DNA from: Blepharisma japonicum
Taxonomy: Eukaryota > Ciliophora > Heterotrichea > Heterotrichida > Blepharismidae
Length of the DNA: 64,000 nucleotides
Assembly: GCA_949751835.1 (NCBI GenBank)
Contig: CATKHK010000005.1
Location: forward strand, 744,001 to 808,000
Direction of reading: 5' to 3'
Positions 1,269 through 51,073 of this stretch are shown piece after piece; positions within the stretch are counted from its first letter, which is position 1; every line of letters begins with the position of its first letter. Position numbers and translations under genes: made by a program. The notes below the pieces were generated by a model, which saw nothing but the letters and a program-made list of their open reading frames with translations, did no database searches and was not told where the DNA came from.

Positions 1269-2485
1269 ATTTGATTAGTTTTAATTAATGAATTATATTT
1301 AATTATGTTGCTTTTCAATAACAATTAAATGAATTACGCAGTCTAAAGAGTTTCATAGCCATGCTTTGCTATTATTTTACCTTAAAAAATTTTTTTGGGT
1401 TTATTTTCGATATATAAGAGCAGTTACTTCTCATTAGTAATTAAGGAATTAAAAATTTGAATTTTGTTTTTCTTTCTATAGAGTTTTATATATTATCAAA
1501 AGATTGCAAACTTCCATTTATTGACTTAAATAGCTATATATGATTATGCATAGAGCACTCGAAACTTAAAAAAATATTTTTGATTGGCTTAAGAATCGTA
1601 AAGTATAAAAATATCGCAATCAATAGACTTAATTGCTTTGAAATTGCCTGCTGAATTTTTTTAAATTGGCTATTTTGAGTTAATAATAATTGCTTTAGTG
1701 TCAATTCGCTTCAAGATTTGTACTTTAACTGATTCAGGGTTAAAATAAAGTGTTAATCTCTTATAAATAATAAAATTACACTATTCATTTTAAAATAATA
1801 TTTTAGCATCCAAGCTTTATCAAAAATATGTTTGTTATTAATGCGAAAATTAGAAAATTAAGCAGAGACTAAAAGAATTTGAATGCTATGCCGAAGGACT
1901 TAAGCTCAATCCTTATGATCCTAAATAAAAAGAGCTCTTGTTAAATTAAAGAAGTTATTATAATAAAATTTATTTTTATAATTTGAAAAAGAATTAGCTA
2001 CAAATTAAAATTGAATATGTCCTTTAACAATTATATCTCTTTTAAAGCTTTGATTTTAATATTAATAGCTAGCAGGTTTAATTACTGTGAATTTTTGGAT
2101 AGCTTTCATATTTAAATAATATTTCTTTATATTTATTAAAGAATTGGAAAATAATGAGAATTTGGTGCAACACTGCCATCGTTGAAGAACTTGCATGATA
2201 AACTCACTCGATAGATCTCAGAAGAAGCTTCAATCTATAATAGCTGTCTAGCAGTTAATTTCAAACTTGAAGCCATTCTAATAATAGCCTATAAGCATTA
2301 TAGATTAAAACATATTTAAAAATAAATTTTATCTTTATTAAATATAAAAACCTTTGGACTTCAATAAAACGAAGATCTTAATTTATCCGATAATCAATAA
2401 AAAAAATAAAAGACTTATAAAGTGCAGCTTACTCATAAAGAAATCCATTAAATGTAGACATACAAATAATAATTAATTCAACAAC
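1269..2485. other. AT-rich spacer with a TPR gene relic
   Basis: About 1.2 kb with stops in all frames. The only recognisable piece is at 1866-1926, plus strand, which reads like half a TPR unit (E-F-E-C-Y-A-E-G-L-K-L-N-P-Y-D-P-K) before a stop. Nothing else is identifiable. Confidence 0.6.
1866..1926 (+). pseudogene. TPR repeat fragment
   Basis: A short piece matching the second helix of the neighbouring TPR units, with the E-C-Y...L-K-L-N-P signature, followed directly by TAA. No start codon or further repeats flank it. It is a remnant of another member of the local TPR family. Confidence 0.5.
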
Positions 2486-5359
2486 ATGGATAAGGGTCGA
2501 TTTAAAAACTTTGAGCATTGAAAAGAGAAAGGCAGAAAACTTTATAAAGATAATAAGTTTAAAGAAGCCTTAAAATGTTATACAGAAGCAATTAAACTCA
2601 ATCCTGACGACGCTGGCTTATACATTAAAAAAGGAAATGTTCTTAGAAAATTGGACAAAGATCTTGAAGCATTAATATGCTATCAGCAAGCAATTGAACT
2701 CAAGCCTGATGAATTTAAAGCTCACTATAAAAAAGGTATTGTTTTTGATGATTTAGACTTAACAGAAGAAGCAATTGAATGTTATGACGAAGCACTACAA
2801 ATCGATCCTAATCATTTTGAAGTTTACCTCAAAAAAGGCTCTGCTCTTGATGATATAGGCAATTATAGTGAAGCAATCGAATGCTATGATGAAGTAATTA
2901 AAATTTGCCCTAATTGTGCTGATTTTTACAATATGAAAGGCTGTGTTTTGGGAAAATTAGGCGATGGTCTTGAAGCAATAAAATGTTATGACAAAGCATT
3001 GAAACTTGAGCCTAATGATCCTGGAACTTACGTTAATAAAGGCTGCATTCTCGATAATTATATTCATAAAATGGCATAGTGAGTCAACCTTTCCCCTTAC
3101 AATTAAAAAAAATTTGGTTTCAGTGAAAGGGAATTTTTGCTGTTATTTTGTTTCAATTTAAAATATTTGTAGTCAGAAATGAGAACAGCTTTGGTGATTG
3201 TATTCGGGTGGGCTTTGGCTGACTTAGTGGAACAGCAACATCGAGTAGACTGACCCAAACTAGTATCAGGTTGAATTTCCCTCAGTGAAGAGATAGAGCT
3301 CAGAGTCTAAAAGGAGTAGCTTTGCAGTGCCAAAAGTAGGTTTCTTGGCCAATTGGATGACTTCCCCAGAGCGATGCTAGGCATGCATATTGGGCTATGA
3401 ATTTGGAATCTATATTTATGCAATGAATTTTCGCCTTGGGCAGACAAATGACCAGAAAATTCGATATATCTAATTTCGGGAAGGCAAACCCTTTGATATG
3501 GCATGGTGACTCATCGTTTCTGACTCTTAAATAGTGATTAAAGTCTCATCCATAAAGAATAAAATAGAAGAAAGCTAGTGGTCTGCAAAGTTCTCCATTA
3601 GCCATTTAAATAAGTAACAATTCTCTATAGTTTAGACAGGAACACTGAAGCAATAAAATGCTTTAACAAAGCAATAAAACTCAAGCCTGACTATGCGGCT
3701 GCTTACTTTAAAAAAGGTAATACACTTTGTGAATTAGACAGAGAACTTGAAGCAATAGAATGCTATAATCAGTCATTAAGAATAAGGCCAAATAGTGTAC
3801 GCGCTTATAATGCTAAAGGTGCTGCGCTTGATGCTTTAGGCATGTATCGTGAAGAAATAGAATGCTATAATGAAATAATTAAACTTGAGCCTCGTGATGC
3901 TGTAGTTTATGTCAAAAAAGGTGATGCTCTTATGGAACTGCGTAAATATTTTGAAGCAATAGAATGCTATGATGAGGTAATCAAAATTGACCCTAATTTT
4001 GCTTCTGCTTACTTTAATAAAGGAGTTATTTTTAAGATATTAGAAAGGAACATTGAAGAAATGGAGTGTTATGACCAAGCAATAAGAGCCAATCCTAATT
4101 ATGTTATGGCTTATAATAATAAAGGAATTGTTCTTAGCGAGCTAGGCAGGTTTCCTGAAGCAATTGAGTGCTATGATCAAATAATAAAACTCAATCCAGA
4201 TGATGCTGTGGCCTATAGCAATAAAGGAAATGCCCTTAAAGATTTAGGAAGAAATCTCGAAGCGATAGAATGTTATAACAAAGCAATTAAACTCTTTCCT
4301 GATTTTGCTGATGCCCACAATAATAAAGGCTGTGCTCTTCATAATTTAGAAAGGTATGCTGAAGAAATAGAATGCTGCAACGAAACAATTAAAATTAAAC
4401 CTGATCACTTTTTTGCTTATTATAACAAAGGCAAGGCTCTTTCATGTTTAAATAAAACTCTCGAAGCAATTGAATGCTATAATAATGCAATAAAATTCAA
4501 GCCTGATTTTTATTTAGCTTACAATAATAAAGGTACTGAACTTGATGAGCTAGGCAGATATGCAGAAGCAATAGAATGCTACAATGAAGCAATAAAAATC
4601 AATCCCGATAATGCTATGGCTTATTATAATAAAGGCAATGCACTTAAGAAGTTAGATAAAAATCTTGAAGCATTAGAATGTTATAATAAAGCAATTAAAT
4701 TTGTTCCTGACTATGCTGATTATCACAGCAGTAAAGGCATGGTTCTTAGCTCAATCGGCAAAAATGTTGAAGCAATCGAATGTTTAAATGAAGCAATCAG
4801 ACTTAAACCTGAAAATTCTAGTTATTATGATATTAAAGGTATTATTCTTTGCAAGCTTGGCAGAGAACTTGAAGCAATAGAATGCTTTAAAGAGGCACTC
4901 ACACTACAACCAGATGATGAAGATATATTAAAAAATTTAATTATTGCTCTTCACAACTTAGAAATAAGTAATGAAACAGAAGAAACTCATGAAGAAGATG
5001 TGCAGGCGGAGTCTGATGTCTCTGAAGAAACTCATGAAGAAGATGTGCAGGCGGAGTCTGATGTCTCTGAAGAAACTCATGAAGAAGATGTGCAGGCGAA
5101 ATCTGATGTCTCTGAAGAATCTTTCTGCAAAAAAGGCGATGCTCTTTATGAATTAGGCAATTATAATGGGGCAATAGAATACTACAACGAAGCAATTGAA
5201 CTCAACCCAAGTGATGCTGATGCCTATATTAAAAAAGGAAAAGCTCTTATTAAATTGGATAGGAGATCTGAAGCAATAAAATGCAATATCAAAGCAATCC
5301 AGCTAAATCCTGATTGCATCTATTTGATAGAGAATGAAGAGACTCCTGATGATGATTAA
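2486..5359 (+). CDS. TPR-repeat protein split by a 573-nt TA-bounded insert
   Basis: Starts at ATG 2486 (M-D-K-G-R-F-K-N-F-E-H-W, the Trp coded by TGA) and ends at TAA 5357-5359. Consists of about 20 TPR units of 34 residues. The frame is broken by stops between 3057 and 3627. Leaving out 3055-3627 (one TA kept) joins the sequence in frame and gives a unit of exactly 34 residues (K-G-C-I-L-D-S-L-D-R-N-T-E-A-I-K-C). Near the C-terminus three identical-length 15-residue acidic repeats (4979-5113) interrupt the TPRs, followed by two more TPR units and an acidic end. A scaffold function is inferred; partner unknown. If the insert is not removed in the expressed genome, the gene is two fragments: 2486-3079 and a start-less 3' part. 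Confidence 0.8.
3055..3627. other. TA-bounded insertion in TPR gene, candidate IES
   Basis: 573-nt segment bounded by TA at 3055-3056 and TA at 3628-3629. It has stops in the host frame, a base composition richer in G and C than the spacers around it, and no resemblance to TPR sequence. Exact removal between the two TAs restores one perfect TPR unit. TA boundaries are known for internal eliminated sequences of Blepharisma and other ciliates, and also for Tc1/mariner insertions. The ends show only weak inverted similarity; an imperfect 15-nt direct repeat (t-g-g-c-a-t-a/g-g-t-g) occurs near 3071 and 3499. A 65-codon open frame on the minus strand (3307-3504) has no recognisable domain. Confidence 0.65.
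4979..5113 (+). repeat. 3 x 45-bp tandem repeat, coding
   Basis: Three head-to-tail 45-bp copies inside the TPR gene, nearly identical at the DNA level (one base differs in the third copy). Each codes for the 15 residues E-E-T-H-E-E-D-V-Q-A-E/K-S-D-V-S. The length is a multiple of three, so copy number can change without breaking the gene. Confidence 0.9.
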
Positions 5360-6039
5360 TTAAGGATTATTTTATTTTAACCATATTAATATCAAAGGTT
5401 CTTAACTTAACTCCAATTATTATATATTAGAGAATAATAGTTAAATTTTAATTTCTAAGCATTATATTAATTATTATTATTATTATTATTAAATTTTTGA
5501 TAGCTCATCCTTGATCCAACGATGGTGGATTATTTGATCAAGAACAGGAAGTAGGTAAATTTATTTTTGATAAATCAGTTATTTCCTATAGCAAAATCCT
5601 TATAATATATATGAAATTTGGTATAGAGCAAGAGATGGGGCTAGAATCCCCAGATAAAACTAGTAGACCAAGTAGAACCCGATTTCCAGAGAGAGCTAAA
5701 CTTCAATATTGAGCCAGTCAGAATGAGACTGAGAGACATTCAATTGCAATAGACCCAATAGACCCAAATAAAGCTAAACTTCTAGTTAGACCGAGCATAC
5801 CCAGATATACTTAGTGAGATTGATCCATCCCCACTCTATCCTTATCAACTGGAAAAAAGGTGGGCTCTTATATATTAAATATATGAATTTTTGTCATTTT
5901 TATTAGTGTTAGAATTTCAAAAATTTTAACACCATAAAAGCATACATTAAGCTTATCTTATAGCAAATAGCAGGATAGAAGAATTAAAAGTTCTGACCTT
6001 GAGCTAAATGAAACTATCAGTAGAATAATTAATCAGATT
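5360..6039. other. Non-coding spacer with ATT run and GC-richer island
   Basis: No coding frame recognised. Contains a simple ATT/TTA run at about 5469-5494 and a GC-richer stretch at about 5620-5860 with repeated short phrases (agacccaa, gctaaactt twice). The island resembles the 19.25-19.5 kb island only in composition. Origin unknown. Confidence 0.5.
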
Positions 6040-6292
6040 CATGAGCCAAAATCAATTTTGGATTTATGAGCATTGGAATATGGAAGGGTAAGCGACTTTC
6101 AAAAGAAAATAGGTGGAAGGAAGCCTTAAAATGCTATAAAAAAGCAATTGAAGCCAAGCCTGAAGACGCTAGCTTATACATCAAAAAAGGCAGTGTTCTT
6201 AGAAAATTATTCAGAGACCTTGAGGCAGTAGAATGCTATAACAAGGCAATTGAACTTAGCCCTCTGGCTTTCAATTCTTCTAATATTGCCTA
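6040..6292 (+). pseudogene. Truncated TPR gene
   Basis: The start (ATG 6040, ending in Y-E-H-W) matches the start of the TPR gene at 2486, and the following text (R-W-K-E-A-L-K-C-Y-K-K-A-I-E-A-K-P-E-D-A-S-L-Y-I-K-K-G) is the first TPR unit of that gene, but the two pieces lie in different frames. The frame ends at a TAG at 6290-6292 soon after the second unit begins, where the sequence switches to unrelated DNA. A broken 5' end of a TPR paralogue. Confidence 0.6.
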
Positions 6293-6490
6293 GCTTATTC
6301 TGTTCTGACGCTCGTCTATCTTTCTTTCCTCCATTAAAGCTATTTCTATTTCTTGAGACTTTTTCTTTCTTCCATTTCAATTGCATATCTTATAGCGTTT
6401 GGCTCAACTCAAATATATCAATCGCTATTGCAAAAAAATGAATTGCTACTCCTCCAAAAATATGCAATTTCATTGCAACACAAACTGCAA
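6262..6490 (-). pseudogene. Coding-like relic on the minus strand
   Basis: Reads on the minus strand as a charged helix (A-I-R-Y-A-I-E-M-E-E-R-K, then Q-E-I-E-I-A-L-M-E-E-R-K) with a frame change and a TAG inside. The E-I-E-I-A-L-M-E-E stretch recalls a ubiquitin-interacting motif but is too short to name. It directly abuts the truncated TPR gene. Confidence 0.25.
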
Positions 6491-6689
6491 TATGCTCTGA
6501 ACTTGCAGCAAGAAATTTTCAAATACCTTAGAGTTGCGCTCATCATATTATCAAGTTTAAACATATATCAGAAAGTCTCTGGCTTCATGGATAGGAGAAA
6601 TTGACAAATTAGATTGCCAATTTAAGCTGGATAAGTCTCCCTAGAGAACTAAACAGCTCAAGATAATCCAAAATCATTCCAATACTATA

Positions 6690-7110
6690 TCTGATTATCA
6701 TTAAAGCACGTTATAATATGATTTCAGCCAGTATCAATTCTTCCTCCAAAACAACATAAAACTTTTGTTCTATCATTATGAGTCATACATACTATGCTGA
6801 AAAATAGGAGAAGGTAACTCACAGTTGCAGCTGACTTTTTTTTTCCAGTCATATTTAAAATCCAGAAACCATTATTAGATTTTCTATCATCTCCTACACC
6901 TACAAATATATAAATTTCAGGCGTTCTTAGGTCTTGATAAATAGACAGATGCATATTATATATGCTTTAAGCTGTTCAGAGCAGGTATTTCTTCAAGCTT
7001 TATTTTTTGGTTTAACTCTCAATGAATAAGCATATGTTTTCCTACTCCAGCTGCACAATGATTTTTCCTTGGCTGTATCACGCATTGCCAAATTCCAGTT
7101 TAGATAAATT
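6690..7110 (-). pseudogene. Decayed kelch-repeat gene fragment
   Basis: On the minus strand the text I-Y-I-F-V-G-V-G-D-D-R-K-S-N-N-G-F-W-I-L-N and V-L-C-C-F-G-G-R-I-D-T-G has the spacing of kelch blades (I-Y-I-F-G-G ... W ... L), and upstream H-C-A-A-G-V-G-K-H-M-L-I-H is another blade edge. Frame shifts and stops separate the pieces. The intact kelch gene of this window (30215-31447) is a different, more distant member. Confidence 0.35.
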
Positions 7111-7467
7111 GAGGGATCTAGAAATTGTCCAATTTAACAAGGATTAAACCTCATATTTGGCTTTTAAGATTTACAAATAATTTTTAATCGAAAAGTTAAT
7201 CTTTGGCTTTTATATTACTAAAAAGAAAATGATTATTTTGTCATCAGATCGCTATAGAAGTATTAAAAAGTAAGAGGTTTAAAAATGTGCACTACAGAAG
7301 ATAACGATTTTAATAAAATTAGAAGATCAACAATTTTACTCAGCTTATCAAAGATTTAAAGTCAGAAATTTTGCAGCTGATATTCCTAATTAATCTTGAA
7401 TTTTTATTTAGACATTAAAATAATCTTTAATATTTAGCAACAACTAAAACTAATAAAAATTAGCAAA

Positions 7468-7971
7468 ATGCTAGCCCTAATCGGAATTTAAACTGAAGAC
7501 TATGAAATTATGGTCCCAGTCCAACTTTTATCAATGGTCGGACATATATTCCACACTGTCTGTCCGAGCAAGCAAGCAAGCAGGTGACGATATCTTGCAT
7601 CTGTCCTATATTTAGAACTAGGTCTCAAATCTATTATTCAATTGACAGATTTGTCGCTGACAAAAATCATTTCAGAGTTAAACGAGGCTGAATATGACAC
7701 TTAATTTATCACTAGAGGTGGGACACCTGAACATATAAGACAAAATACAAGGTTAGTCAAAATTTAGAGGTTGCTGGAGTGCTAAGAGGGAGAAAAGCAA
7801 CTGGGGTATATTGCACGTAAACCTGAAGTCACTATTTCTGGAAAAAATTTATATGAAAAAGATTGGGAGCAGACAAATGTAGACGGAAATCTTATGAGCA
7901 TGCAACTTAGTTGGGGCATGAATCTTTTATAGCGGAGTTTTTGAAGGTTTTAAATCCAAAAATTGAGCTTT
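7468..7971 (+). pseudogene. Dead DJ-1/PfpI-like gene
   Basis: Plainly the decayed twin of the gene at 21097-21681: it keeps the start (M-L-A-L-I-G), the E-D-Y-E-I-M-V-P-V-Q-L-L-S-M-V-G stretch and the end (H-E-S-F-I-A-E-F-L-K-V-L), but has in-frame stops, small insertions (an extra aagc repeat near 7570) and a deletion covering the nucleophile-elbow region. It cannot give a full protein. Confidence 0.9.
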
Positions 7972-8096
7972 AACTAATAAAATATACTAATTATAAAAAT
8001 TCATAACTATATGATGAAGAGTTATATTATTTAAGACAAGAATGTTTTAGACTCAGTAATTGGGCATATCTTTTATATGAGACTTATATTACTACT

Positions 8097-8714
8097 TTAA
8101 AAATCTCTAGGCTCACGAGTTTCCAAAAACGTTTTCAGTGTCCTTGAGGAATTTAAAAACCTGACTTTCCACTGTCTCAGCTTATTACGCCCCTCTAACG
8201 TCTCTGGGTGGAATTTTTCAATGATGTTATGAAGTACTGCAAATACGTGGAAATCTGCCCTAGTAGGATGATTTCCCACAAAGTACCCACTTCCTCCATT
8301 ATTCTTATCAAGCCTTGCCTCAATTATTCCGAGCCACGCAGGGACTTTTTCTGTAAAAACTTTATTAAGTCCTTCAAAGTCTTTATTAAAGGCTAAAGGA
8401 GTTATAGCACCCGCAATATCTTCACATAGGTCACACAAGGACTCAACCCAATAGGTTTCTTCACCTTCTGCAGCTCCATAGCCAAATTTATTGCAAAGGT
8501 AGCGGGAAATTGATTGAGTTTGAGCCAGTCTGTGTCCATCTACGTCTACTATAGGCAGTTGTGAAAATTCAGCGAAGCCTGAACCTTTCAGCTGAGGCCA
8601 TTCTTGAAACTGAATTTTGTGGTCTTCAAAAGCAGCCCCAGCGTAGTGAAGAATCATCCGGATTACGTCGGCTCTCCCATATATGTCGAAATAGTGAACG
8701 GTTATTCGTGACAT
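8097..8714 (-). CDS. Sigma-class glutathione S-transferase (copy A)
   Basis: 205 residues, a normal length for a cytosolic GST. The thioredoxin-like N-terminal half starts V-H-Y-F-D-I-Y-G-R-A-D-V-I-R with the expected catalytic Tyr at residue 8; the glutathione-binding Q-L-P-I-V-D and Q-T-Q-S-I-S-R-Y-L (Gln-Ser pair binding the gamma-glutamyl end) follow; the C-terminal half is the all-helical domain with F-V-G-N-H-P-T-R-A-D-F-H-V-F. It should conjugate glutathione to electrophiles or act as a prostaglandin-synthase-like isomerase in the cytosol. The start is set at M-S-R-I by comparison with copy B; an upstream in-frame ATG (8747) is not shared. Divergent from the plus-strand GST at 8980, with a 265-bp shared promoter region. 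Only five residues differ from copy B. Confidence 0.93.
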   Translation of the reverse strand: MSRITVHYFDIYGRADVIRMILHYAGAAFEDHKIQFQEWPQLKGSGFAEFSQLPIVDVDGHRLAQTQSISRYLCNKFGYGAAEGEETYWVESLCDLCEDIAGAITPLAFNKDFEGLNKVFTEKVPAWLGIIEARLDKNNGGSGYFVGNHPTRADFHVFAVLHNIIEKFHPETLEGRNKLRQWKVRFLNSSRTLKTFLETREPRDF

Positions 8715-8979
8715 TATTATATAATTTGGCTTCCAATGGTTTTGCATTGGCTCATATTGATAGATATTTAGATATTATAGTAAAAGGAGTAAGAATGTTA
8801 CTGATTGGAATTAGACAAATTGATACTTTTTGTAATTTTTTAATAGAAAAATTGGGCTTTAAATATAATTTATTATTCTAAGATAGAAAATTAAAAAGCT
8901 ATATATAAAACCTAAAATAATCAGCATTTTATGTAAATTTATCCAGATTGTTATAAGCTTACAGTTAATAATAATAATA

Positions 8980-9675
8980 ATGGGTTGTGGTAAAAGCAAC
9001 GCTAAAGAGCCAACTATACCTACTAAGGTCTCGGCTGGATCTAATCCCACTTTTCAAAATGTAGTTTTACACTATTTCTCTTTGTATGCAAGAGGAGAAG
9101 TTATCCGTGTGAGTCTTCACTATTTAGGCGTCGACTATACAGAAGACTTCGTCACTGCCCAAACTTGGCCAGCCCTTAAGCCAAAAACTGAGTTTGGTCA
9201 AATTCCAGTGCTTGAAATCAATAACCTCAAACTCGTTCAAACGAGATCAATCATGCGTTATCTATTTCAGACCTTCAAGCATTATCCAACAGATAACTTC
9301 CAAGCTTACAACGTTGAAAGTCTAGTTGATTTATTAAATGACATGAGGGATCCTCTAGATGATGCTCAAGTTAAAAGCGCCGTTGAGCAAGTAGAAGCCC
9401 TTTATACAACGAAATTTCCTGACCAGCTGAAAATGATAGCAAAAAGATATTCAACGTATGGGTCTAAGAAGTTTATGGTCGGCAATAACGTGAGTATGGC
9501 TGATATGTATGTTTTTCAATTTATACATGATAACTTTATGACTCCTTTAGCAAAAAAATATGAAAATTTACTTGATCAGCATTGCCCAGCTGTCAAGAAG
9601 TGGGCAAACGAGTTTTTGGAGTCGTCGCCAGCATTGAAAGCATATTTAGCTTCAAGGCCTGAAAGACCTTTCTAA
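8980..9675 (+). CDS. GST-like protein with N-terminal acylation signal (copy A)
   Basis: 231 residues. A 25-residue N-terminal extension begins M-G-C-G-K-S, a classic N-myristoylation start (Gly2, Ser6) with Cys3 for palmitoylation; then a GST fold: V-L-H-Y-F-S-L-Y-A-R-G-E-V-I-R with Tyr32 in the catalytic position, Q-I-P-V-L, Q-T-R-S-I-M-R-Y-L, and C-terminal M-V-G-N-N-V-S-M-A-D-M-Y. So it is a sigma-type GST probably tethered to a membrane, which is unusual since members are normally soluble. Activity is inferred from the fold. Divergently paired with the minus-strand GST. About 38 residues differ from copy B. Confidence 0.9.
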   Translation: MGCGKSNAKEPTIPTKVSAGSNPTFQNVVLHYFSLYARGEVIRVSLHYLGVDYTEDFVTAQTWPALKPKTEFGQIPVLEINNLKLVQTRSIMRYLFQTFKHYPTDNFQAYNVESLVDLLNDMRDPLDDAQVKSAVEQVEALYTTKFPDQLKMIAKRYSTYGSKKFMVGNNVSMADMYVFQFIHDNFMTPLAKKYENLLDQHCPAVKKWANEFLESSPALKAYLASRPERPF

Positions 9676-9799
9676 ATAATCATATATTTATGATAAAATT
9701 GACTAATGAAATATTTATTAATAAAAATTCATATAGATCCCTTGCTGAAACTAAATTTATATTAGCTCTATCAGCTCTAGTTATTATTTTGTTTAAGGC

Positions 9800-10160
9800 T
9801 TATAAATGTTTTATTAAATTTAATTATATTTTCTCAGTGCATATGCTGGTTTTATTACATGCATTTCCTCATAGCAATTTTTACAGAATTTCTCATAATT
9901 CCATTCTCTATGCTAGGTAGCGAACACAGAAATTTGACAATTTAAAAATTATATTCACTAGTCAAAATTAAATATATTTTTATATAGAAAATCATTTTTA
10001 ATAATTAATTATTTGTTCTCTATAAAAAGAATTGCTCTAGCGGCCATTGGATATCTGATTCAACTTAATGATCTTTGATATAATAAAAATTTAGACTTCT
10101 ATTGACTCGATGAGCATTGTTTGATTAAGGTGAGAGTCTTTTATTTTTATATTATCTAGT
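9800..10160 (-). pseudogene. Dead copy of the small zinc-binding protein gene
   Basis: Aligns with the gene at 23399-23776: shared phrases include the end of the gene (tctcagtg), ttttacagaatttc and ttcaacttaatgatcttt. The cysteine codons of the zinc knuckles are not kept, extra AT-rich DNA of roughly 90 bp interrupts it, and there is no open frame. Confidence 0.7.
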
Positions 10161-10165
10161 GACCA

Positions 10166-10744
10166 CAGCCACCCAACGGACCTTAACTTCATAAACTCTA
10201 AGCGTCATATGAAGTAATTTAAAATTTAGAGCCTCTTGCACAAAAACTCCTGTAATTTAGTAGATATAAAATGCTAGTCAAAGAATTTTCTTGACCATAA
10301 TCCAATAATTTAAAGGCTTATCCAGACGATGCAATCTTGAATTTATTAATAATCTATAAATTCATTTAAGCTTATAAATTAAAATCTTAAAATAATTCAA
10401 AATAAACAGCATTAAAAGATTTAAAAAAATTATTTTGTGTTTTAAGCAAAATTGCTTAATTTCATATGGAAAAATAACTTAATAAAACAAGACTTAGTAA
10501 TGCATGGCAACACAGTATAATAATAGATCAGCTACTTTAAAGTGATTTATTTGAGGAAATCTGTGGAGAGGTACGAATGGCTAATTAGAAAGCTCAAAAA
10601 TTTATGAGAAAGAGCTAGATAGTAATATCTCATTGCTATTACTTAATTTATTCAGTTTTATTAATAGATTTTTCAAACAATAAGCTGTTGAGTGATAATT
10701 TCATTATATTTTTAAATTTAAACATTCTTAAAATAATTAAATTT
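10166..10744. other. AT-rich spacer
   Basis: About 580 bp between the duplicated block and the 3' end of the receptor gene. Stops in all frames; nothing recognised. Confidence 0.6.
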
Positions 10745-14218: not shown

Positions 14219-15562
14219 TATTAAATCACAAATTTTAGGTTTAGTATTTAATAGTTGTAATTAAATGTAATAAGCATCATTGATTTATTAAATTTTATGC
14301 AGATTTCGATTAGAGTTGAAATATATTTATGATGTTCAAAATACAGAAATTATTATTTTACAAATTATAGATATATGGATTATATTTACAAAAATGGAAA
14401 TTGCTTAAGATTATTTATTACCTTTTTAATAAAAGCAGAAATTAAAATAAATTTTTAGACCTCTAATCATAATATTCTAAGATCGTAGATTAATAATTAT
14501 CAAAATCTTTATCTTAATCTAGATAGAGTTTTCCTTATCATGGAAAAATTTAATAATTGCTCTGATTGCGCTTTCTTATAAGCAGTACGATATCTCTTCT
14601 GAATCAAGTAACAAAGTTAGATAGAATGGAAGAAAATTAAAAGATATTGACCTTATGACATCAATTAGCTAAAACAAAGTAAAAAATATTAAAAATTGAT
14701 TAGATTATAAAAAGCATGAGCTAAAATTTTTTGGTAAAACTAAAAAAAATTAATTCTTTCAAATTTATCGAGTGAAAAAATCGTAAAAGAAGCTATATTA
14801 GGACTATAAAAATTAATAAAATATTTATATAATAAAAGTGAAATAAGTCAAACAAATCGTTTTAATGAAAATTTATTCAATTTTTCTTTTCATTAATCAA
14901 TTGGCGAGTTCAGTCTATTAAACTAGCATTGTTAGCATCAAATAAAATAAATAAAAAATTTATTATGATTATAAGTCGGATTTTAAGTTAGATTTAAAAT
15001 ACAAGATCTGATTATGATAATAAAATATTGCTTAAGTAAGTTTTAAAGATTGCCTTGATAGCTGGTTTTACCTTTTATTGAAATGAAAGCAGCTGCACTA
15101 TCATAGCTGTGTAAGAAGGGGCAAAAGCTGCAACTTATACCAATGTGTTAAAAAAATTCCAGTTAGTGATAAAGATGGTCTAGCAGATGCTGATAAAAAG
15201 ATACTTAGATGTGTAAAGTATGAAAATGTTGGGTGCATAGGAGATTGCTCAAACTTCCAACTCGAAAACTGAGAGTACAGCTATTGATTAAGCGTTTGCT
15301 CAAGTGATTAATATTATTAAAACAATTGAGAAAAAAGAATTAAATGCCAAATATGCAGGATATGTATCTTGCCCACTATTTGCTTGATATGAGAAAGAAT
15401 TTTAGCAGAATTCAAATATGAAGGAGTTCCAGATGATACTTATAAAATCCTATGGATAAGTCTAATTGTGCCAAAATGACAATATTATAAATTTACATTA
15501 ATACATTAATACAATGGGTGGAAGATTTGAAGCAATATAATATAATATAATATAATATCAAA
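14219..15562. other. AT-rich spacer with a decayed coding region
   Basis: Mostly structureless AT-rich DNA. At about 15040-15480, plus strand, there are long stretches that look like former coding sequence (for example C-V-K-K-I-P-V-S-D-K-D-G-L-A-D-A-D-K-K-I and N-A-K-Y-A-G-Y-V-S-C-P-L-F-A) spread over different frames with TAA/TAG stops. I could not assign a family. A short (AATAT) run lies at about 15533-15557. Confidence 0.4.
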
Positions 15563-15610
15563 TCAATCAAGCTAAATCCTGATAGCATCTATTTATAGGA
15601 GTAAAAAGAA
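15563..15610 (+). pseudogene. 3' end fragment of a TPR gene
   Basis: Nearly the same as the last codons of the TPR gene at 5295-5342 (shared core gctaaatcctgat, gcatctattt), with a TAG inside. A dispersed relic about 10 kb from the TPR cluster. Confidence 0.6.
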
Positions 15611-15630
15611 TACAGCAAGTATAAATTAAT

Positions 15631-18600
15631 TTAATTACCATCATTATTTTTTATTAGAACAATAAGTTCCTCTAATTTTTCATAAATTTCTTTATTATTC
15701 TTTGCAATCTCAGCTTTAGTTTCTATATTATTTTTTGAGATTTCAGCTTGAATGGCCTTTATTTTCTTTTTCAAAGGAAGTATTTCATTTATTTTATCTT
15801 TCTTGCTGTAACAGTTACTGTCAATGCACATCTGGAAAAAGCATGGCTCCGAAATATTTCTGTTCTTTATGAGCATTGTTTCAAGCTCAATAATCATTCC
15901 GACTAGCTCATGCGTATCTGCTATCTGAGAATTGACTTGAACATTTCCAAATGTATCACCAATAATTGATATCAGAAGATTCAGCATCACAATCATATTA
16001 ATCATAGTCACCAAAACAAAACAAATTCATTGAATAGAGTTCATACTAGATGTATCAAAATCCCCAACAATAAACCTATATGACATTTTAACATAATCTA
16101 CAAAATTCGGGTCATTTTCATCTAAAACTAAGAAAATTAACGCAAAAGAGAGTATTGAATAATGCAATAAAATTAAAAATGAAATCATATCTTTCATTAC
16201 TTCAGATATCAAATTTACCATATAACGAGTATTTTCAAATATTCTGAAATAAGAAATACCTCTTAGGCATGAAATTATGACTAAAAAGGCGAGGACGTCA
16301 TGTTTTTTTATTCAGCTTTCTGAACTTAGGCTTATATCGAAATATAAGATTGAAGATATTGATCTTGCTATGTCAATGTAATTTCATAAGTCTTTAATAT
16401 AGCTAATTGGAGAAGCTCATAGTTGATAAACTTCGTAAAGTGATAAGAGCATGCTAATGGAAAATAAAATTGATAAAACCATTAAAAAAGAAATATGTCA
16501 GATTTAGCTTTATTTTCGTCATTTCGGATATGAATCCGGCGTAAAACGACGCAAAAATATATAGATCACGAAAATTTTAATGCAAAACAATAATTTAATT
16601 TATTTCTTGAAATATAGAGGAATTTCTTTACAATAGCCTGCCCTTAGAGAAGAAATGAATTGGAGTTTCAGTCGAGGCGCTGCAGAATTTGGCAGTGTTA
16701 TCTCTTGTGTCTTTTCTAAATAGTGCTTCATAAAAATTCAATAAAGAATTGCAGTTTGATAAATTTAGCTTGACCAAATCTGAATTCCTTAAACTTGTTA
16801 ATCTATAAGGATGCAAAGACAAATATTTACCAATTGAAAGAATAATGGTGTTGATGCAGTTAAAATATCCTTTGTGGATTGCAATTGATAATGGATTTTG
16901 ATTAAAAATAGTATTAATCATTGATGAACTATTTTTTAAAGCTCGTTGTAAGTGCTTTGGATAATTAAAATAGGCATAGAGATGTAAAGTGTTTATCATA
17001 TAAGGAAAAATAGCTCATTGGTCCATTTCTGGATTATATTCAACTTCTTGGTTATTTATCAACTTTGATACATATTTCATGTATTCGTATTTGTTTCCAG
17101 GCCCAGCAAGAGTGATTTTGCTCATTTTAAAAGGATTTTCTTTAACCGTTAGTGTTCTTATTTCAGCGCCTTCAGTAAAGTTTTGATAGTAAAAATAATT
17201 TCCATCACCGCATTTATCCATATAATGTAATTTACTATATTTATATGAAAATATCTTGCTAAAAGTCTCCAGACTAATAAAAGTTACATCTCCTTCTTGA
17301 GAATATCCCATCATGAACCTATCATCTTTTGATATAGTAATTTTAAGAATTCGCGAATTACATTGTATCGAATGCAGTCGAATGTTCTTTCTCCAATTTC
17401 AGAAATTTATTGTGCAATCCGAATTAATTAAAATGATAATTTCTTCATTATGAGTTATATTCATAGTGTAATTGTCTTCTTTTTCACGAATAATTGCTCT
17501 TTCTTTTACTGTATCAAGATCCCATATCCTTAGAATTTTATTTTCAGCCATCCCCACTAATACTTTTGATTTAGGCAAATAAATGATTTCCTTTGTCCAG
17601 CTATCGAAACCTTTAAATTCTTTAACTATAGTCATAGACTCAAAATCCCGTAAATATATTTTCTTTTGACTTCCAGTGACAAGGTATTTGCCATCTGAAC
17701 TGGAGCGTGCCCATAAAATAGTTTCATAATCATTTTTATCTAAAATTTTAGTAAAAATGTTTCCTGTTGGAATATGAACTTTTTCTATGGTTTGGCTACC
17801 TATTATAAAAAAATATTCGCTATTTTGAACTTTTCAATAATTAGCGTGAATATTGGCAACAAATCTGATCTCATTGGTAATGAAATTCCATATTTGGAAT
17901 TTTTCACCAATATTAAATATTATTTTAGATTAAATCTAAGAACTCGCAGTTGTATACTTCTATAGATTTTTGGAAATCAAAGGTGGGAAAATTTAGTACA
18001 TAAATGTCGCGATAACGCCCAGATACAAAGACTAGTTTATTATCTTCACTTAGCCCTACAAAATTGATTTCAAAGTTATCAATATTTATTGTCTCTCTAA
18101 CTTTAAAGGTTTGCAAATCATAAAATATAAATTTTCTTTGTCTGGAAACACAAGGAATTTTTCATCATTAGTAATTGCGAATACTCCTCATTGGTTATAA
18201 GTAAGTTTAATCTCTCGTAATGTTTTTAAATTATAAGCATTTAAAATAGTGATTTTAGTTTCTTTTCCAATTATCATCATAGATCCCTTAGGGGAATAGA
18301 AGACTCTAAAAAAGTCTGGGTCAATAGGTATTTCACCGACCTTCTCATTATCCTCTGATAAAGCTACGAGCTTATTTTCTGAAGAAACAAGAACTATTTG
18401 ACCTTTGCTTGATATTGTAAATGTTTTAAAATCGCCTGAGAACATTGTTTTTGGCTTTGCTGAATCTGGCAAATCGAATAATAAAATTTCATCAGAAAAG
18501 CATGCAACTAAGCTTTTTTGATCATAATGTTTTTCCATGTGGAGCAACTTCCTGCCTTCTTCAAATGATCAAAATATACTCACTTCGAAAGAAGGAATTT

Positions 18601-20817: not shown

Positions 20818-21096
20818 AATCTATGCGAATATTCTATAATAAGGATTCTAAATTTGAATTTAGTTTTAATTAGTTTAAAAAAACTTAGAAAATTCTCAAT
20901 TGGACCAAAATTATGCATGCAGAAAATAAAATTTTAAATTAAATTCGGAGATCAGCAATTTACTCAGTTTATCAAAGATTTAACCCTAGATATTACTGAA
21001 GCTGGTTTTCTTGATTAATCTTTATTTTTTATTTAGAGTATTAAAAACTAATCTTTAGCTTTTAACAATTACTAAAACTTATAAAAAGTTGATAAA

Positions 21097-21681
21097 ATGC
21101 CAGCCAAGAAAATCTTAGCCTTAACAGGAGATTACGCTGAAGACTATGAAATCATGGTCCCAGTCCAACTTTTATCAATGGTCGGACATATAGTCCACAC
21201 TGTCTGTCCAGACAAGCAAGCAGGCGACTATACCTTGACCTCTGTCCATGATCTAGAACTAGGTCTCCAAACCTATTATTCAATTGACGGGCACAGATTT
21301 ACCTTAAATAAAACCTTTTCAGAAGTAAACGAGGCTGAATATGATGCTTTATTTATCACTGGAGGCGGCGCACCTGAATATATAAGATTAAATCCAAGGG
21401 TCATAGAAATTGTTCAACATTTCGCGAATAATAATAAACCTATAGGTATCGTAGGCCATGGCGTGCAAGTGTTAGCAGCTGCTGGAGTACTAAGGGGGAG
21501 AAAAGTAACTGGCTATATTGCATGTGAGCCTGAAGTCAATATATCTGGAGGCACTTATGTGAAAAAAGATTGGGGAGAAACCAATGTAGACGGAAATCTT
21601 GTGAGCTGTGTAGCTTGGTCTGGGCATGAAACTTTTGTAGCAGAGTTTTTGAAGGTTTTAGGGACAACAATTGAACTTTAA
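21097..21681 (+). CDS. DJ-1/PfpI family protein without the nucleophile Cys
   Basis: 194 residues, one DJ-1/PfpI (class I amidotransferase-like) domain: E-D-Y-E-I-M-V-P near the N-terminus with the conserved Glu18, Y-D-A-L-F-I-T-G-G-G, then I-G-I-V-G-H-G-V-Q-V-L-A-A-A-G-V-L where family members have A/I-C-H-G-x-Q, and L-R-G-R-K-V-T-G-Y ending in G-H-E-T-F-V. The text is closest to the DJ-1D/YhbO branch (glyoxalase or chaperone-like). Position 120, normally the catalytic Cys, is Gly, so glyoxalase or peptidase chemistry is not expected; a binding or regulatory role is more likely. Stops 39 bp from the convergent GST gene. Confidence 0.88.
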   Translation: MPAKKILALTGDYAEDYEIMVPVQLLSMVGHIVHTVCPDKQAGDYTLTSVHDLELGLQTYYSIDGHRFTLNKTFSEVNEAEYDALFITGGGAPEYIRLNPRVIEIVQHFANNNKPIGIVGHGVQVLAAAGVLRGRKVTGYIACEPEVNISGGTYVKKDWGETNVDGNLVSCVAWSGHETFVAEFLKVLGTTIEL

Positions 21682-21720
21682 TTAAATAAATATCTTTTAT
21701 ATGAGACTTATATTATTACT

Positions 21721-22338
21721 TTAAAAATCTCTAGGCTCACGAGTCTCCAAAAACGTTTTCAGTGTCCTTGAGGAATTTAAAAACCTGGCTTTCCACTGTC
21801 TCAGCTTATTACGCCCCTCTAACGTCTCTGGGTGGAATTTTTCGATGATGTTATGAAGTACTGCAAATACGTGGAAATCTGCCCTAGTAGGATGATTTCC
21901 TACAAAGTATCCGCTTCCTCCATTATTCTTATCAAGCCTTGCCTCAATTATTCCGAGCCACGCTGGGACTTTTTCTGTAAAAACTTTATTAAGTCCTTCA
22001 AAGTCCTTATTAAAGGCTAAAGGAGTTATTGTGCTCCCAATATCTTCGCATAGGTCGCATAGAGACTCAACCCAATAGGTTTCTTCACCTTCTGCAGCTC
22101 CATAGCCAAATTTATTGCAAAGGTAACGGGAAATTGACTGAGTTTGAGCCAGTCTGTGTCCATCTACGTCTACTATAGGCAGTTGGGAAAATTCAGCGAA
22201 GCCTGAACCTTTAAGCTGAGGCCATTCTTGGAACTGAATTTTATGGTCTTCAAAAGCAGCTCCAGCGTAGTGAAGAATCATCCGGATTACGTCGGCTCTC
22301 CCATATATGTCGAAATAGTGAACGGTTATGCCTGACAT
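21721..22338 (-). CDS. Sigma-class glutathione S-transferase (copy B)
   Basis: 205 residues starting M-S-G-I-T-V-H-Y-F with Tyr8 in the catalytic place, glutathione-site motifs Q-L-P-I-V-D and Q-T-Q-S-I-S-R-Y-L, and the helical C-terminal domain with F-V-G-N-H-P-T-R-A-D-F. Differs from copy A at five residues only (3, three adjacent near 100, one near 180). Function: conjugation or isomerisation with glutathione in the cytosol. Divergent from the plus-strand GST over 230 bp, so the pair may share a promoter. Confidence 0.93.
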   Translation of the reverse strand: MSGITVHYFDIYGRADVIRMILHYAGAAFEDHKIQFQEWPQLKGSGFAEFSQLPIVDVDGHRLAQTQSISRYLCNKFGYGAAEGEETYWVESLCDLCEDIGSTITPLAFNKDFEGLNKVFTEKVPAWLGIIEARLDKNNGGSGYFVGNHPTRADFHVFAVLHNIIEKFHPETLEGRNKLRQWKARFLNSSRTLKTFLETREPRDF

Positions 22339-22568
22339 TATTATATAAGTTTGGCTTGGAAAGTAAATTCCAATGGTTTTGAATTGGTTAATATTAGATA
22401 AAAAATTAGATGGTAATAGTAATAGGATAAAGAATGTGACTGATTGGAATCAGCCAAATTTAATAAAAAATCATATTTAAAAACCAAAACTGAAAACTTA
22501 GTATATATAATCACCAGCATTTTACGCTAAATTTATGCATCATTTTTATAAGTTGACAGTTAATAATA

Positions 22569-23264
22569 ATGGGTTGTGGTAAAAGCAACGCTCAACAGCC
22601 ATCTCCACCTACTAAGGTCTCGGCTGGATCTAAGCCCACCTTCCAAAATGTAGTTTTCCACTATTTCCCTGTTTATGCAAGAGGAGAAGTTGTGCGTGTG
22701 AGTCTTCACTATTTAGGTGTCGACTACACAGAAGACTTCGTCACTTTCCAAACTTGGCCTGCCTTTAAGCCAAAAACTGAGTTTGGACAAATGCCAACGT
22801 TAGATATCAATAACTTGAAACTCGGCCAAACGAAATCAATCATGCGTTATCTCTTTCAGTCTTTCAAGCACTATCCAGCAGATAACTTCCAAGCCTACAA
22901 CGTTGAAAGTCTAGTCGATTTATTACATGACATGAGAAATCCTCTTTATGAAGCTCATGTTAAAAAAGCCCCAGAGCAAGTTGAAGCCCTTTACACAACG
23001 AAGTATCCTGATCAGCTAAAAATGGTAGCAAAAAGATATTCAACATATGGGTCGAAGAAGTTTATGGTCGGCCAAAGCTTGACTATGGCTGATTTATATG
23101 TTTTTCAATTTATACACGATAACTTTATGACTCCTTTGACAAGAAAATACGAAAATTTGCTTGATCAGCACTGCCCAGCTGTAAAGACGTGGGCTAAAGA
23201 ATTTTTGGAGTCGTCGCAGGCATTGAAAACGTATTTAGCTTCAAGGCCTGAAAGACCTTTCTAA
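22569..23264 (+). CDS. GST-like protein with N-terminal acylation signal (copy B)
   Basis: 231 residues, same plan as copy A: M-G-C-G-K-S start for myristoylation and palmitoylation, Pro/Ser-rich linker, GST domains with H-Y-F-P-V-Y-A-R-G-E-V-V-R, Q-M-P-T-L and Q-T-K-S-I-M-R-Y-L, C-terminal helices, and the same P-E-R-P-F end. About 84 percent of residues equal copy A by eye, far less than for the neighbouring minus-strand GST pair. Probably a membrane-tethered GST; whether it is an active enzyme is not proven by sequence. Confidence 0.9.
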   Translation: MGCGKSNAQQPSPPTKVSAGSKPTFQNVVFHYFPVYARGEVVRVSLHYLGVDYTEDFVTFQTWPAFKPKTEFGQMPTLDINNLKLGQTKSIMRYLFQSFKHYPADNFQAYNVESLVDLLHDMRNPLYEAHVKKAPEQVEALYTTKYPDQLKMVAKRYSTYGSKKFMVGQSLTMADLYVFQFIHDNFMTPLTRKYENLLDQHCPAVKTWAKEFLESSQALKTYLASRPERPF

Positions 23265-23398
23265 ATAATCATATATTTATGATAAAATTGCCTAATGAAA
23301 AATACTAATTAATAATGGAATAGAGTTAAATTCAAATTTATAATAGTTTTATCTAGAGCCGATTATTCTTGTTTGAAGCTTCTAATTATTTTATAAAT

Positions 23399-23776
23399 CT
23401 AATTATATTTTCTCAGTGTATGAAACATTGGTTTTAGTGCATGCTTTCCCTCATAGCATTTTTTACAGAATTTCGCATAATTGCATTCTTTACAGTAACC
23501 TTCTGCATTTTTTAAACAATTTGAGCACAGAAATTTCACTATTTAAAAATTACCCCTAGAGATCGTTGAATAGCCGATTCAACTTAATGATCTTTCATGT
23601 AGTAGAGAATTATCTGGGCTGCTATTGTCTAGATAAACATTATTTGAATAAGGTGGGGAGTCAGGCATTATTTTTATTGGAGAACTTAAAGGAGAAGGGA
23701 GAAGATGGGGACGTGAAGGCTTTGGCTTTCTTGCTGTAGAGCAACAGCAGAATTGGGTTAGCAAGCCAGCTATCAT
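23399..23776 (-). CDS. Small cysteine-rich zinc-binding (B-box-like) protein, one intron
   Basis: Starts M-I-A-G-L-L-T-Q-F-C-C-C-S at 23776; exon 1 is Ser/Pro-rich and includes one TGA (Trp). A 15-nt intron gtaatttttaaatag (23539-23553) then opens exon 2, which codes for F-L-C-S-N-C-L-K-N-A-E-G-Y-C-K-E-C, then A-K-F-C-K-K-C-Y-E-G-K-H and ends L-R-K-Y-N with TAG 23399-23401. The C-x2-C...C-x2-C...C-x2-C...H spacing is that of a B-box or similar two-zinc fold. 120 residues in all. Function unknown; protein or ubiquitin-pathway binding is common for the fold. The N-terminal Cys triplet may be acylated. Confidence 0.7.
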
Positions 23777-38722: not shown

Positions 38723-40261
38723 ATGGGCTGTTGTACATCAAAGAAGCCAGATAAAAATTCCAATTCATCCGAAATCATTATCACGACTAACAAAAACATA
38801 GAAAAAATTGTATTTTCCGCTAAAACCCCTAACACTAGATCAGTTACCGTTCATGAAGTCTCTAAAATTAGAAGATCTTCCCATGTAGCACATAAAAATG
38901 GTCCAATCGAAGAGTTCTTCAACGTTTTAGAAAAAATTGGGTCTGGAGGGTATGGAAACGTTTTTAAAGGGACTGATAAGCAGACAGGTTTTTTTAGAGC
39001 TTTAAAATGCATCAAAAAAAACAAACTTAAAAACACAAACTTAATGAGCGAAGTGGAACATTTACAAGAACTCGTAATCATAATTCAGGATCATCCAAAT
39101 ATCTTAAGAGTTTTGGAGGTGATTGAAGATTCGGAGAATTTTTGAATTGTTACAGAGCTCTGTAAAGGACCTAACCTGTTTGAAAAAATCTCGAAATTTG
39201 AAATATTCAGTGAAAATCAAGCTGCGGTGTACATGTATGACATTTTGTCAGCACTAAGTCATTGTCATAAGGCAGGGATAATCCACCGTGACATTAAGCC
39301 AGAAAATTTGCTTTTCGAGACTAGCGATGAAAATTCAGTCCTAAAAATCATTGATTTCGGGACATCACGTAAAATAACTGAAGATATAAAATGTACAGAA
39401 CTTATAGGGACTGTAATTTTAAATTAGCCATATTATGTTGCCCCAGAAGTGCTTGAAGGCGCCTATGATGAAAAGTGCGACTTGTGGAGCTGTGGGGTTA
39501 TTTTGTATATAATGCTGTCTGGATACCCTCCTTTCAATGGGTTGAACACTGGGAAAATTTTTAAAAAAATTAAGCATGCTTTATACACGTTTTCTAGTGA
39601 AGAATGGCAAGGGATTTCTGAAGATGCCAAAGATCTAATTTCTAAGCTTCTCCAAAAAGACCCAAATCAGAGACTCAGCGCAGAAGAAGCGCTGATGCAT
39701 AAGTGAATTAAAAAAAGGTCTGACCTTAAAAATTTCTGTGTAAATTCCAGCACCATAAGCCATTTAAGGCATTTTAACTCATCTTGCAAGCTAAAAGTGT
39801 CAGCGTTAAGTTATATAGCAAATCATTTGAGCACATTAGAAGAAATTACAGAAATAAGGGAATTGTTTTTGAAGCTCGATCTAAATGGAGATGGAAAACT
39901 TAGCAGAGAAGAACTTAAAAAAGGCTGCAAAGTCCTTGGAGTAAATAAAGCAGCTGAAATTGAAGACATTATGGAAAGATGTGATGCAGATGGAAATGGA
40001 TATATTGATTATACGGAGTTTATTATTTCTACAATGGATTGGGAAAATAAATTATCAATGGATAAGCTTAGGGAAACTTTTAGAGCTTATGATACTGATG
40101 GGAGCGGAGCAATCAGTATTGAAAATTTAAAAAATTTTTTTGCAAATGACTTAAGTTTGAATCCTGAAGATTTTGATGAAATGCTGAGGGAGGGAGATAT
40201 CAATGGGGATGGAATCATAGATATTGAGGAGTTTATGCAGGTTATGAACTTCACGACTTAA
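38723..40261 (+). CDS. Calcium-dependent protein kinase (CDPK)
   Basis: 507 residues after removal of one 15-nt intron gtaattttaaattag (39413-39427), which splits L-I-G-T / P-Y-Y-V-A-P-E-V. Start chosen at ATG 38723: M-G-C-C-T-S, a myristoylation/palmitoylation signal typical of CDPKs. Kinase domain about 65-330 with [20 protein letters not shown] and D-F-G; two TGA Trp codons. Junction helix, then four EF-hands with full loops D-L-N-G-D-G-K-L, D-A-D-G-N-G-Y-I, D-T-D-G-S-G-A-I and D-I-N-G-D-G-I-I. Calcium binding to the EF-hands frees the kinase; membrane-bound Ser/Thr kinase in calcium signalling. Confidence 0.95.
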
Positions 40262-50245: not shown

Positions 50246-51073
50246 ATGTCTAACGAGCCAAGAATTTGGACCTTACAAGATTTCGAAATCGGCAAAGCCC
50301 TGGGCAAGGGAAAATTCGGCCATGTCTACCTCGCCAGAGAAAAGCGAACCCACTACATAGTCGCTTTAAAAATGCTCAGCAAGCGGCAGCTTCTTGAAGT
50401 AATGATTATTTAGTCACGTATGGAGCGGCAGCTTAGGCGGGAAATTGAAATCCAATCCCATCTCAAACATCCCAACATTTTACGACTTTTTGGCTATTTC
50501 TGGGATGAAAAACGCATTTATTTGATACTTGAATACGCTCCAAATGGTGAGCTTTTTAACGAACTCCGCATCGAAAGGAAATTTTCTGAGCCAAAATCCG
50601 CAAATTATATTGAACAAGTAATTAATGCCCTAATGTATTTGCATGAAAACAATATAATTCATAGAGATATCAAACCAGAAAATTTATTAAATTCTTGTGG
50701 AATCATAAAAATCAGCGACTTTGGGTGGTCTGTGCATGCCCCAACAACAAGAAGGAAAACACTGTGTGGGACTCTTGATTATTTGCCGCCGGAAATGGTG
50801 TGTAGGGAAGAGTATGATGAGTTTATAGACCATTGGGCGTTAGGGGTGCTAACTTATGAGTTTTTAGTGGGGGAACCGCCTTTTGAAAGTAGAGAGCCGA
50901 GAGAAACTTATAGGAGGATAGAAGGGCTACAGTATAATTTTCCGAGTCATATAAGTGAAGAAGCGAGAGATTTTATATCAAAGCTGCTAAGAAGAAATCC
51001 GTATGAAAGAATGAGCTTGGAAGAAGCACTAGAGCATCCATGGCTGGTAAATCACAGAAATAGTATGGTATAA
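50246..51073 (+). CDS. Aurora-type mitotic kinase
   Basis: 270 residues after removal of intron gtaatgattatttag (50399-50413), which sits between the beta-3 strand and helix C. Compact kinase with almost no extensions: [30 protein letters not shown] and activation loop [16 protein letters not shown], the Aurora signature with the activating Thr. Short N-terminus lacks the usual destruction-box region. Controls chromosome segregation or cilium disassembly in other eukaryotes. Confidence 0.94.

Follow-up and report, generated by a model that had tools for sequence, protein, structure and literature searches.

Internal eliminated sequences of Blepharisma and the window

Among the closest described systems are the internal eliminated sequences (IESs) of Blepharisma stoltei, for which the published account gives 39,799 IESs scaffolded on a 41-Mb somatic genome in which genes account for 77%, or about one IES per kb (PMC9942856). 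By the figures given there, approximately 70% of the IESs are intragenic and about three quarters are TA bound, with a median length of 255 bp, a 90th percentile of 603 bp, and a GC content of 33.3%; IESs of at least 115 bp are mostly repetitive. Terminal inverted repeats (TIRs) are described as common and heterogeneous, and simple T/A junction repeats as common. The same account presents IES excision as a continuum, in which retroelements are partly excised from the soma, and reports a residual IES retention of ≤0.02 in DNA enriched for the macronucleus (PMC9942856). In B. stoltei, UGA is reported to encode tryptophan, and introns are mostly 15 and 16 bp long (PMC9942806).

The window analyzed here is a stretch of 64,000 nucleotides from Blepharisma japonicum (contig CATKHK010000005.1, positions 744,001 to 808,000), and all coordinates below count from its first letter. 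It is read with TGA as tryptophan, has 15-nt introns, and contains open frames of up to 1,506 codons. An intron of 15 nt, GTAATTTTAAATTAG (39413 to 39427), lies where an open frame ends inside a protein kinase domain and was joined computationally; a second GT-AG stretch of 15 nt (50399 to 50413), located where another kinase frame breaks off, was read from the frames and the motif. The four longest open frames measure 4,518, 3,516, 2,787, and 2,046 nt, 12,867 nt in sum. By arithmetic from the published figures (PMC9942856), germline IES density would predict about 11 IESs over this length, a comparison that is biased by the four frames having been chosen for being open. Because these long frames are open where about 11 germline IESs would be expected, the window reads as edited somatic (macronuclear) DNA, and we infer that this holds for the segment described below as well.

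A TPR gene interrupted by a 573-nt segment

The 5' piece of a tetratricopeptide repeat (TPR) gene, here called gene B, was found on the plus strand at 2486 to 3054 and comprises the start ATG, the N terminus, and five 34-residue units. Its frame as found continues past 3054 to a stop at 3077 to 3079. The 3' piece, at 3628 to 5359 on the same strand, is open through to its own stop and has its first in-frame ATG at 3842. TPR_1 matches above the Pfam cutoff were obtained on both sides, with E values of 2e-41 (2477 to 3079) and 9.3e-108 (3614 to 5359). Between the two pieces lies a segment of 573 nt (3055 to 3627), the omission of which restores both frame and repeat phase. A first-pass annotation made from the letters alone had described this segment as TA bounded, and TA is indeed present at 3055-3056 and 3628-3629; more exactly, ATA at 3054-3056 and 3627-3629 forms a short direct repeat, containing the TA, that is common to both junctions. 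The statement that leaving out the 573 nt repairs the frame and a 34-residue unit was likewise reproduced: joining 2486-3054 to 3628-5359 yields 767 codons including a single terminal stop, that is, 766 amino acids with TGA as tryptophan, and the junction unit of this computed join has exactly 34 residues and keeps phase with the neighboring units.

That one TPR gene is interrupted at 3055 to 3627 is well supported by the N-terminal text of the 5' piece, by the absence of a start before 3842 in the 3' piece, and by the undecayed units at the cut. The N-terminal and upstream text of gene B (2449 to 2706) is common to a third TPR stretch at 6005 to 6261, and the 3' piece has no N terminus of the type found at 2486 and 6066. 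The 70 codons at 3632 to 3841, which precede any ATG, contain no stops. The units adjoining the cut, at 2957 and 3632, have leave-one-out scores of 49.0 and 67.4, within a range of 6.5 to 77.2 for 28 units; the flanks show no decay even next to the cut.

Farther along the 3' part of gene B, at 4979 to 5119, there are about three near-identical 45-nt tandem copies that encode an acidic 15-residue unit.

Content of the segment

At 36.8%, the GC content of the segment lies above that of the TPR flanks (33.3%) and that of two spacers (23.5% and 28.8%), in agreement with the earlier remark that the segment is GC richer than the spacers. Its non-TPR core (3060 to 3605, approximately 546 nt) has gene-unlike codon scores in all six frames, and none of the collections searched yielded a relative. 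The earlier statement that the segment has no recognized gene is upheld by Pfam and PDB searches, and the segment is apparently noncoding. Across the segment runs a 190-codon frame on the minus strand (3033 to 3605, with TGA as tryptophan), the open length of which was matched by 1 of 2,000 dinucleotide shuffles of 3033 to 3627, a stretch selected so as to cover this frame. Its codon score is -0.165. By comparison, 23 frames ranged from +0.03 to +0.28 when scored with their own table, and three TPR pieces outside the training set ranged from +0.25 to +0.32. The 190-codon frame has 9 tryptophans in 190 residues versus 1.1% tryptophan in the training set. It had no Pfam match above the cutoff (best, DUF1648; E value, 0.075), no PDB sequence match, and no relative in the viral contigs searched; in genome contigs, 22 stretches fit the peptide pattern and none was confirmed by tblastn. 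A gene within the segment was rejected on the grounds of the gene-unlike codon score, the tryptophan excess, and the failure to find relatives in the libraries searched; the minus-strand frame is probably not a gene, rare though its open length is in shuffles.

The first-pass annotation had also raised the occurrence of the segment elsewhere, and no relative was found in the collections covered by the searches. Beyond the TPR flanks, matches within the window were weak only (E value, 0.048 or worse), as were six-frame protein matches (E values, 0.047 and 0.092), and there was no 30-base match in the viral contigs and no phage match. The window gave no Rfam match at gathering score and no tRNA. 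No TIR was detected: when the two 40-nt ends were compared, their best local match was equaled by 233 of 2,000 shuffles, and the end-anchored inverted match of the segment ends is 8 of 20. In a search by motif only, covering C-rich and microsatellite motifs of BogoMITE and BstTc1, a run of seven C or G, CTCCCC, GTACCCCC, and GGGAAGGACT were absent from both strands of 3055 to 3629. A spliceosomal intron was rejected because there is no GT among the left-border starts (3053 to 3060) that the 573-nt register allows; size also opposes such a reading, the two introns found in the window being 15 nt each.

TPR-like text inside the right border

The text immediately inside the right border (3606 to 3627, plus strand) is in register with the left junction text (3033 to 3054) and identical to it at 14 of 22 nt. 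Agreement at least this good was seen at 11 of 57,550 background positions and at none of 540 within the segment. The 27 other TPR units match the same left junction text at 8 to 16 of 22 nt. An in-frame TAA is present at 3611. Since the length of 22 nt had been picked after inspection, the comparison was repeated at 15 lengths from 8 to 44, with background fractions of 1.9e-4 to 4.1e-2 against the left junction and 0.001 to 0.064 against the mean of 26 units. An end-anchored, length-free run statistic, the best run of which is first attained at 8 nt, was equaled by 72 of 57,550 background positions, 12 of 5,006 TA-ended positions, and 0 of 507 positions within the segment.

Other tests of the border text were less favorable to a TPR origin. 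In an ungapped profile, it scored lower than any of the 23 training units at each of the ten lengths tested and was equaled by 0.9% to 8.2% of 57,400 positions. In a gapped test against 24 units, its mean score was reached by 26 of 1,500 random, 56 of 1,500 TA-ended, and 12 of 520 within-segment positions, and its best score by 203 of 1,500, 214 of 1,500, and 43 of 520, respectively. The nhmmer alignment of the right-hand TPR text starts at 3620. On the left side, the gapped test found extension of TPR text into the segment to be no better than chance (134/1,500). On balance, the final 22 nt or so before the right border are probably, though not certainly, degenerate TPR text, in register and with a stop at 3611. 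The earlier description, in which TPR text stops at 3054 and resumes at 3630, holds insofar as the segment interrupts the gene; a resumption only at 3630 is doubtful, as 3606 to 3627 are probably TPR derived.

In-phase joining of repeat text

Seven left TAs in 3030 to 3079 and seven right TAs in 3598 to 3649 make 49 TA-TA pairs. Sixteen of these are in frame, 7 of the 16 being stop free; exact repeat phase is kept by 2 of the 49, and a single pair is both stop free and in phase. With a period of 102 nt, about 0.5 in-phase pairs would be expected by arithmetic from 49 random pairs. Among 276 pairs of TPR units, an in-register TA in common was found in 42 for start columns -8 to 0, in 162 for start columns -12 to +5, and in 6 at column -4 itself. 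The exact junction TA is therefore moderately unusual and keeps modest weight.

The phase of the join is a different matter. The repeat unit is periodic, so that any two TPR texts can be joined in phase by trimming at most one unit, and the informative quantity is how little text is trimmed rather than the phase itself. An overlap of TPR text across the break, if real, would explain why a phase-perfect join exists at all. The judgment that chance would rarely give such a repair was too strong, because overlapping periodic repeat text can be joined in phase anyway, and the repeat-phase argument fails to single out programmed excision.

Gene relics and broken genes in the window

Other TPR genes or pieces were found at 1 to 1268 and from 6066. 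A lone TPR-coding scrap at 1873 to 1923 (nhmmer E value, 2.3e-6) lies in an AT-rich spacer that follows the first TPR gene and is a gene relic. The third TPR stretch, at 6005 to 6293, has upstream and N-terminal text as in gene B and about two units; its TPR text ends at approximately 6261 to 6287, with no further significant TPR match up to 8000, and a clean-edged break is thus also seen at approximately 6261. The text at 15544 to 15650 shares 76% identity with the gene B end (5275 to 5378), has stops in all three frames, and is probably a relic of the end of another TPR gene. Approximately 7250 to 10200 duplicates 20870 to 23730, with 2,286 identities in 3,078 alignment columns. Within this duplication, the gene at 21085 to 21681, putatively DJ-1/PfpI-like, has a copy near 7460 to 7995 from which 61 nt are missing and in which all three of the frames read are broken. 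An 89-codon frame on the minus strand (6685 to 6954) resembles kelch only very weakly (E value, 0.088, below the cutoff) and is possibly another relic. The relics and the frame-broken paralogue together indicate that gene death is ordinary at this locus.

Origin of the interruption

We lean, if only slightly, toward an ordinary young break of, or insertion into, a TPR gene. In its favor are the in-frame, in-phase join, the TPR-like text next to the right border, the relics and the frame-broken paralogue nearby, the edited look of the window, and the lack of a TIR. A gene of the TPR cluster in the somatic genome would have been interrupted by approximately 546 nt of noncoding, non-TPR DNA, with the TPR text of the two sides probably overlapping in phase by about 22 nt; the perfect repair obtained by leaving out 573 nt would then largely follow from the in-register joining of one stretch of repeat text to another. 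The cause may have been insertion or ectopic rearrangement between repeats, in a TPR family that would be losing members at this locus. We infer the young age of the break, its cause, and the persistence of the segment through development. Against a young break, the undecayed flanks and the 70 stop-free codons would be easier to understand if the gene were still read across the junction, and chance accounts only moderately for a junction TA (42 of the 276 unit pairs); the TPR-like border text, too, is short and insecure. A doubtful but serious competitor is a TA-bound IES of 573 bp, retained or partly excised in the assembled macronuclear copy, the excision of which at one TA would allow the 766-amino-acid TPR protein to be made. 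The first-pass annotation had proposed an IES, as a retained or germline copy. The intragenic position, the ATA at both junctions, the undecayed flanks, and a join that is in frame, stop free, and in exact repeat phase all speak for an IES; the length of 573 and the ATA repeat fall within the published Blepharisma range, and the excision continuum described there makes retention possible (PMC9942856). What weakens it is that the window reads as edited DNA, in the face of a published residual retention of ≤0.02 (PMC9942856), that the segment has neither a TIR nor the C-rich ends of BogoMITE or those of BstTc1, and that window matches beyond the TPR flanks are weak only. TPR-like text inside the right border is likewise unexpected for an insertion with a target repeat of 2 to 3 nt. 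A more elaborate form of this reading appears improbable to us: an incompletely excised IES, with a broken and a whole TPR gene in one macronucleus, a right border that is an extended imperfect direct repeat of degenerate host gene text, and a remnant antisense frame along nearly the whole length.

The break need not lie within a single gene if two adjoining TPR genes or pieces end at 3079 and start at 3842, with 3080 to 3841 as leader or spacer; both frames are open independently, and the further TPR genes or pieces at 1 to 1268 and from 6066 provide company for such an arrangement. It is nonetheless unlikely, given that the N-terminal text common to 2449-2706 and 6005-6261 is absent from the 3' piece, that 70 clean TPR codons lie upstream of the first ATG of that piece, and that the GC content of the segment exceeds that of both spacers. 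Least probable of all, and by our estimate hardly to be expected, is an assembly artifact, in which TPR repeats were misjoined or somatic flanks became attached to a germline molecule. Assemblies are known to be at risk from tandem repeats; the TPR stretches of the window are, however, mostly 64 to 81% identical in DNA, which makes collapse or misjoining less easy.

If some of the somatic copies lose the segment by excision, the locus would be a further instance in which variable IES retention alters a coding gene, here in an early-branching ciliate. If it is not excised, the locus is a caution: tandem-repeat genes give in-phase joins across inserts almost free, so that such a join alone is no proof of programmed excision.

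Comparison with known systems

A full-text literature search on Blepharisma and tetratricopeptide found no account of this locus. Like the spliceosomal introns of Blepharisma as reported (PMC9942806), the segment is a noncoding stretch within a gene; unlike those introns, of 15 to 16 bp, it measures 573 nt and has no GT at the border positions that restore phase. Its ends also carry no motifs such as those of BogoMITE (TAA/TTA, with a C-rich TIR) or BstTc1 (TATA, with a TIR beginning GTACCC).

The host traits, TGA as tryptophan and tiny introns, are those described for B. stoltei. With the IESs of that species, as far as the published figures describe them (PMC9942856), the segment shares a TA in the junction repeat, an intragenic position, a length in range, and an apparently noncoding content; it differs from them in sitting in DNA that reads as edited somatic, in having no TIR, and in the probable TPR text inside its right border. 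Like broken tandem-repeat gene families, the locus has relics and truncated kin adjoining the break, and repeat text probably overlaps across it; the flanks of gene B, however, are undecayed and lie in one frame, a state that would be unusual had the break been old.
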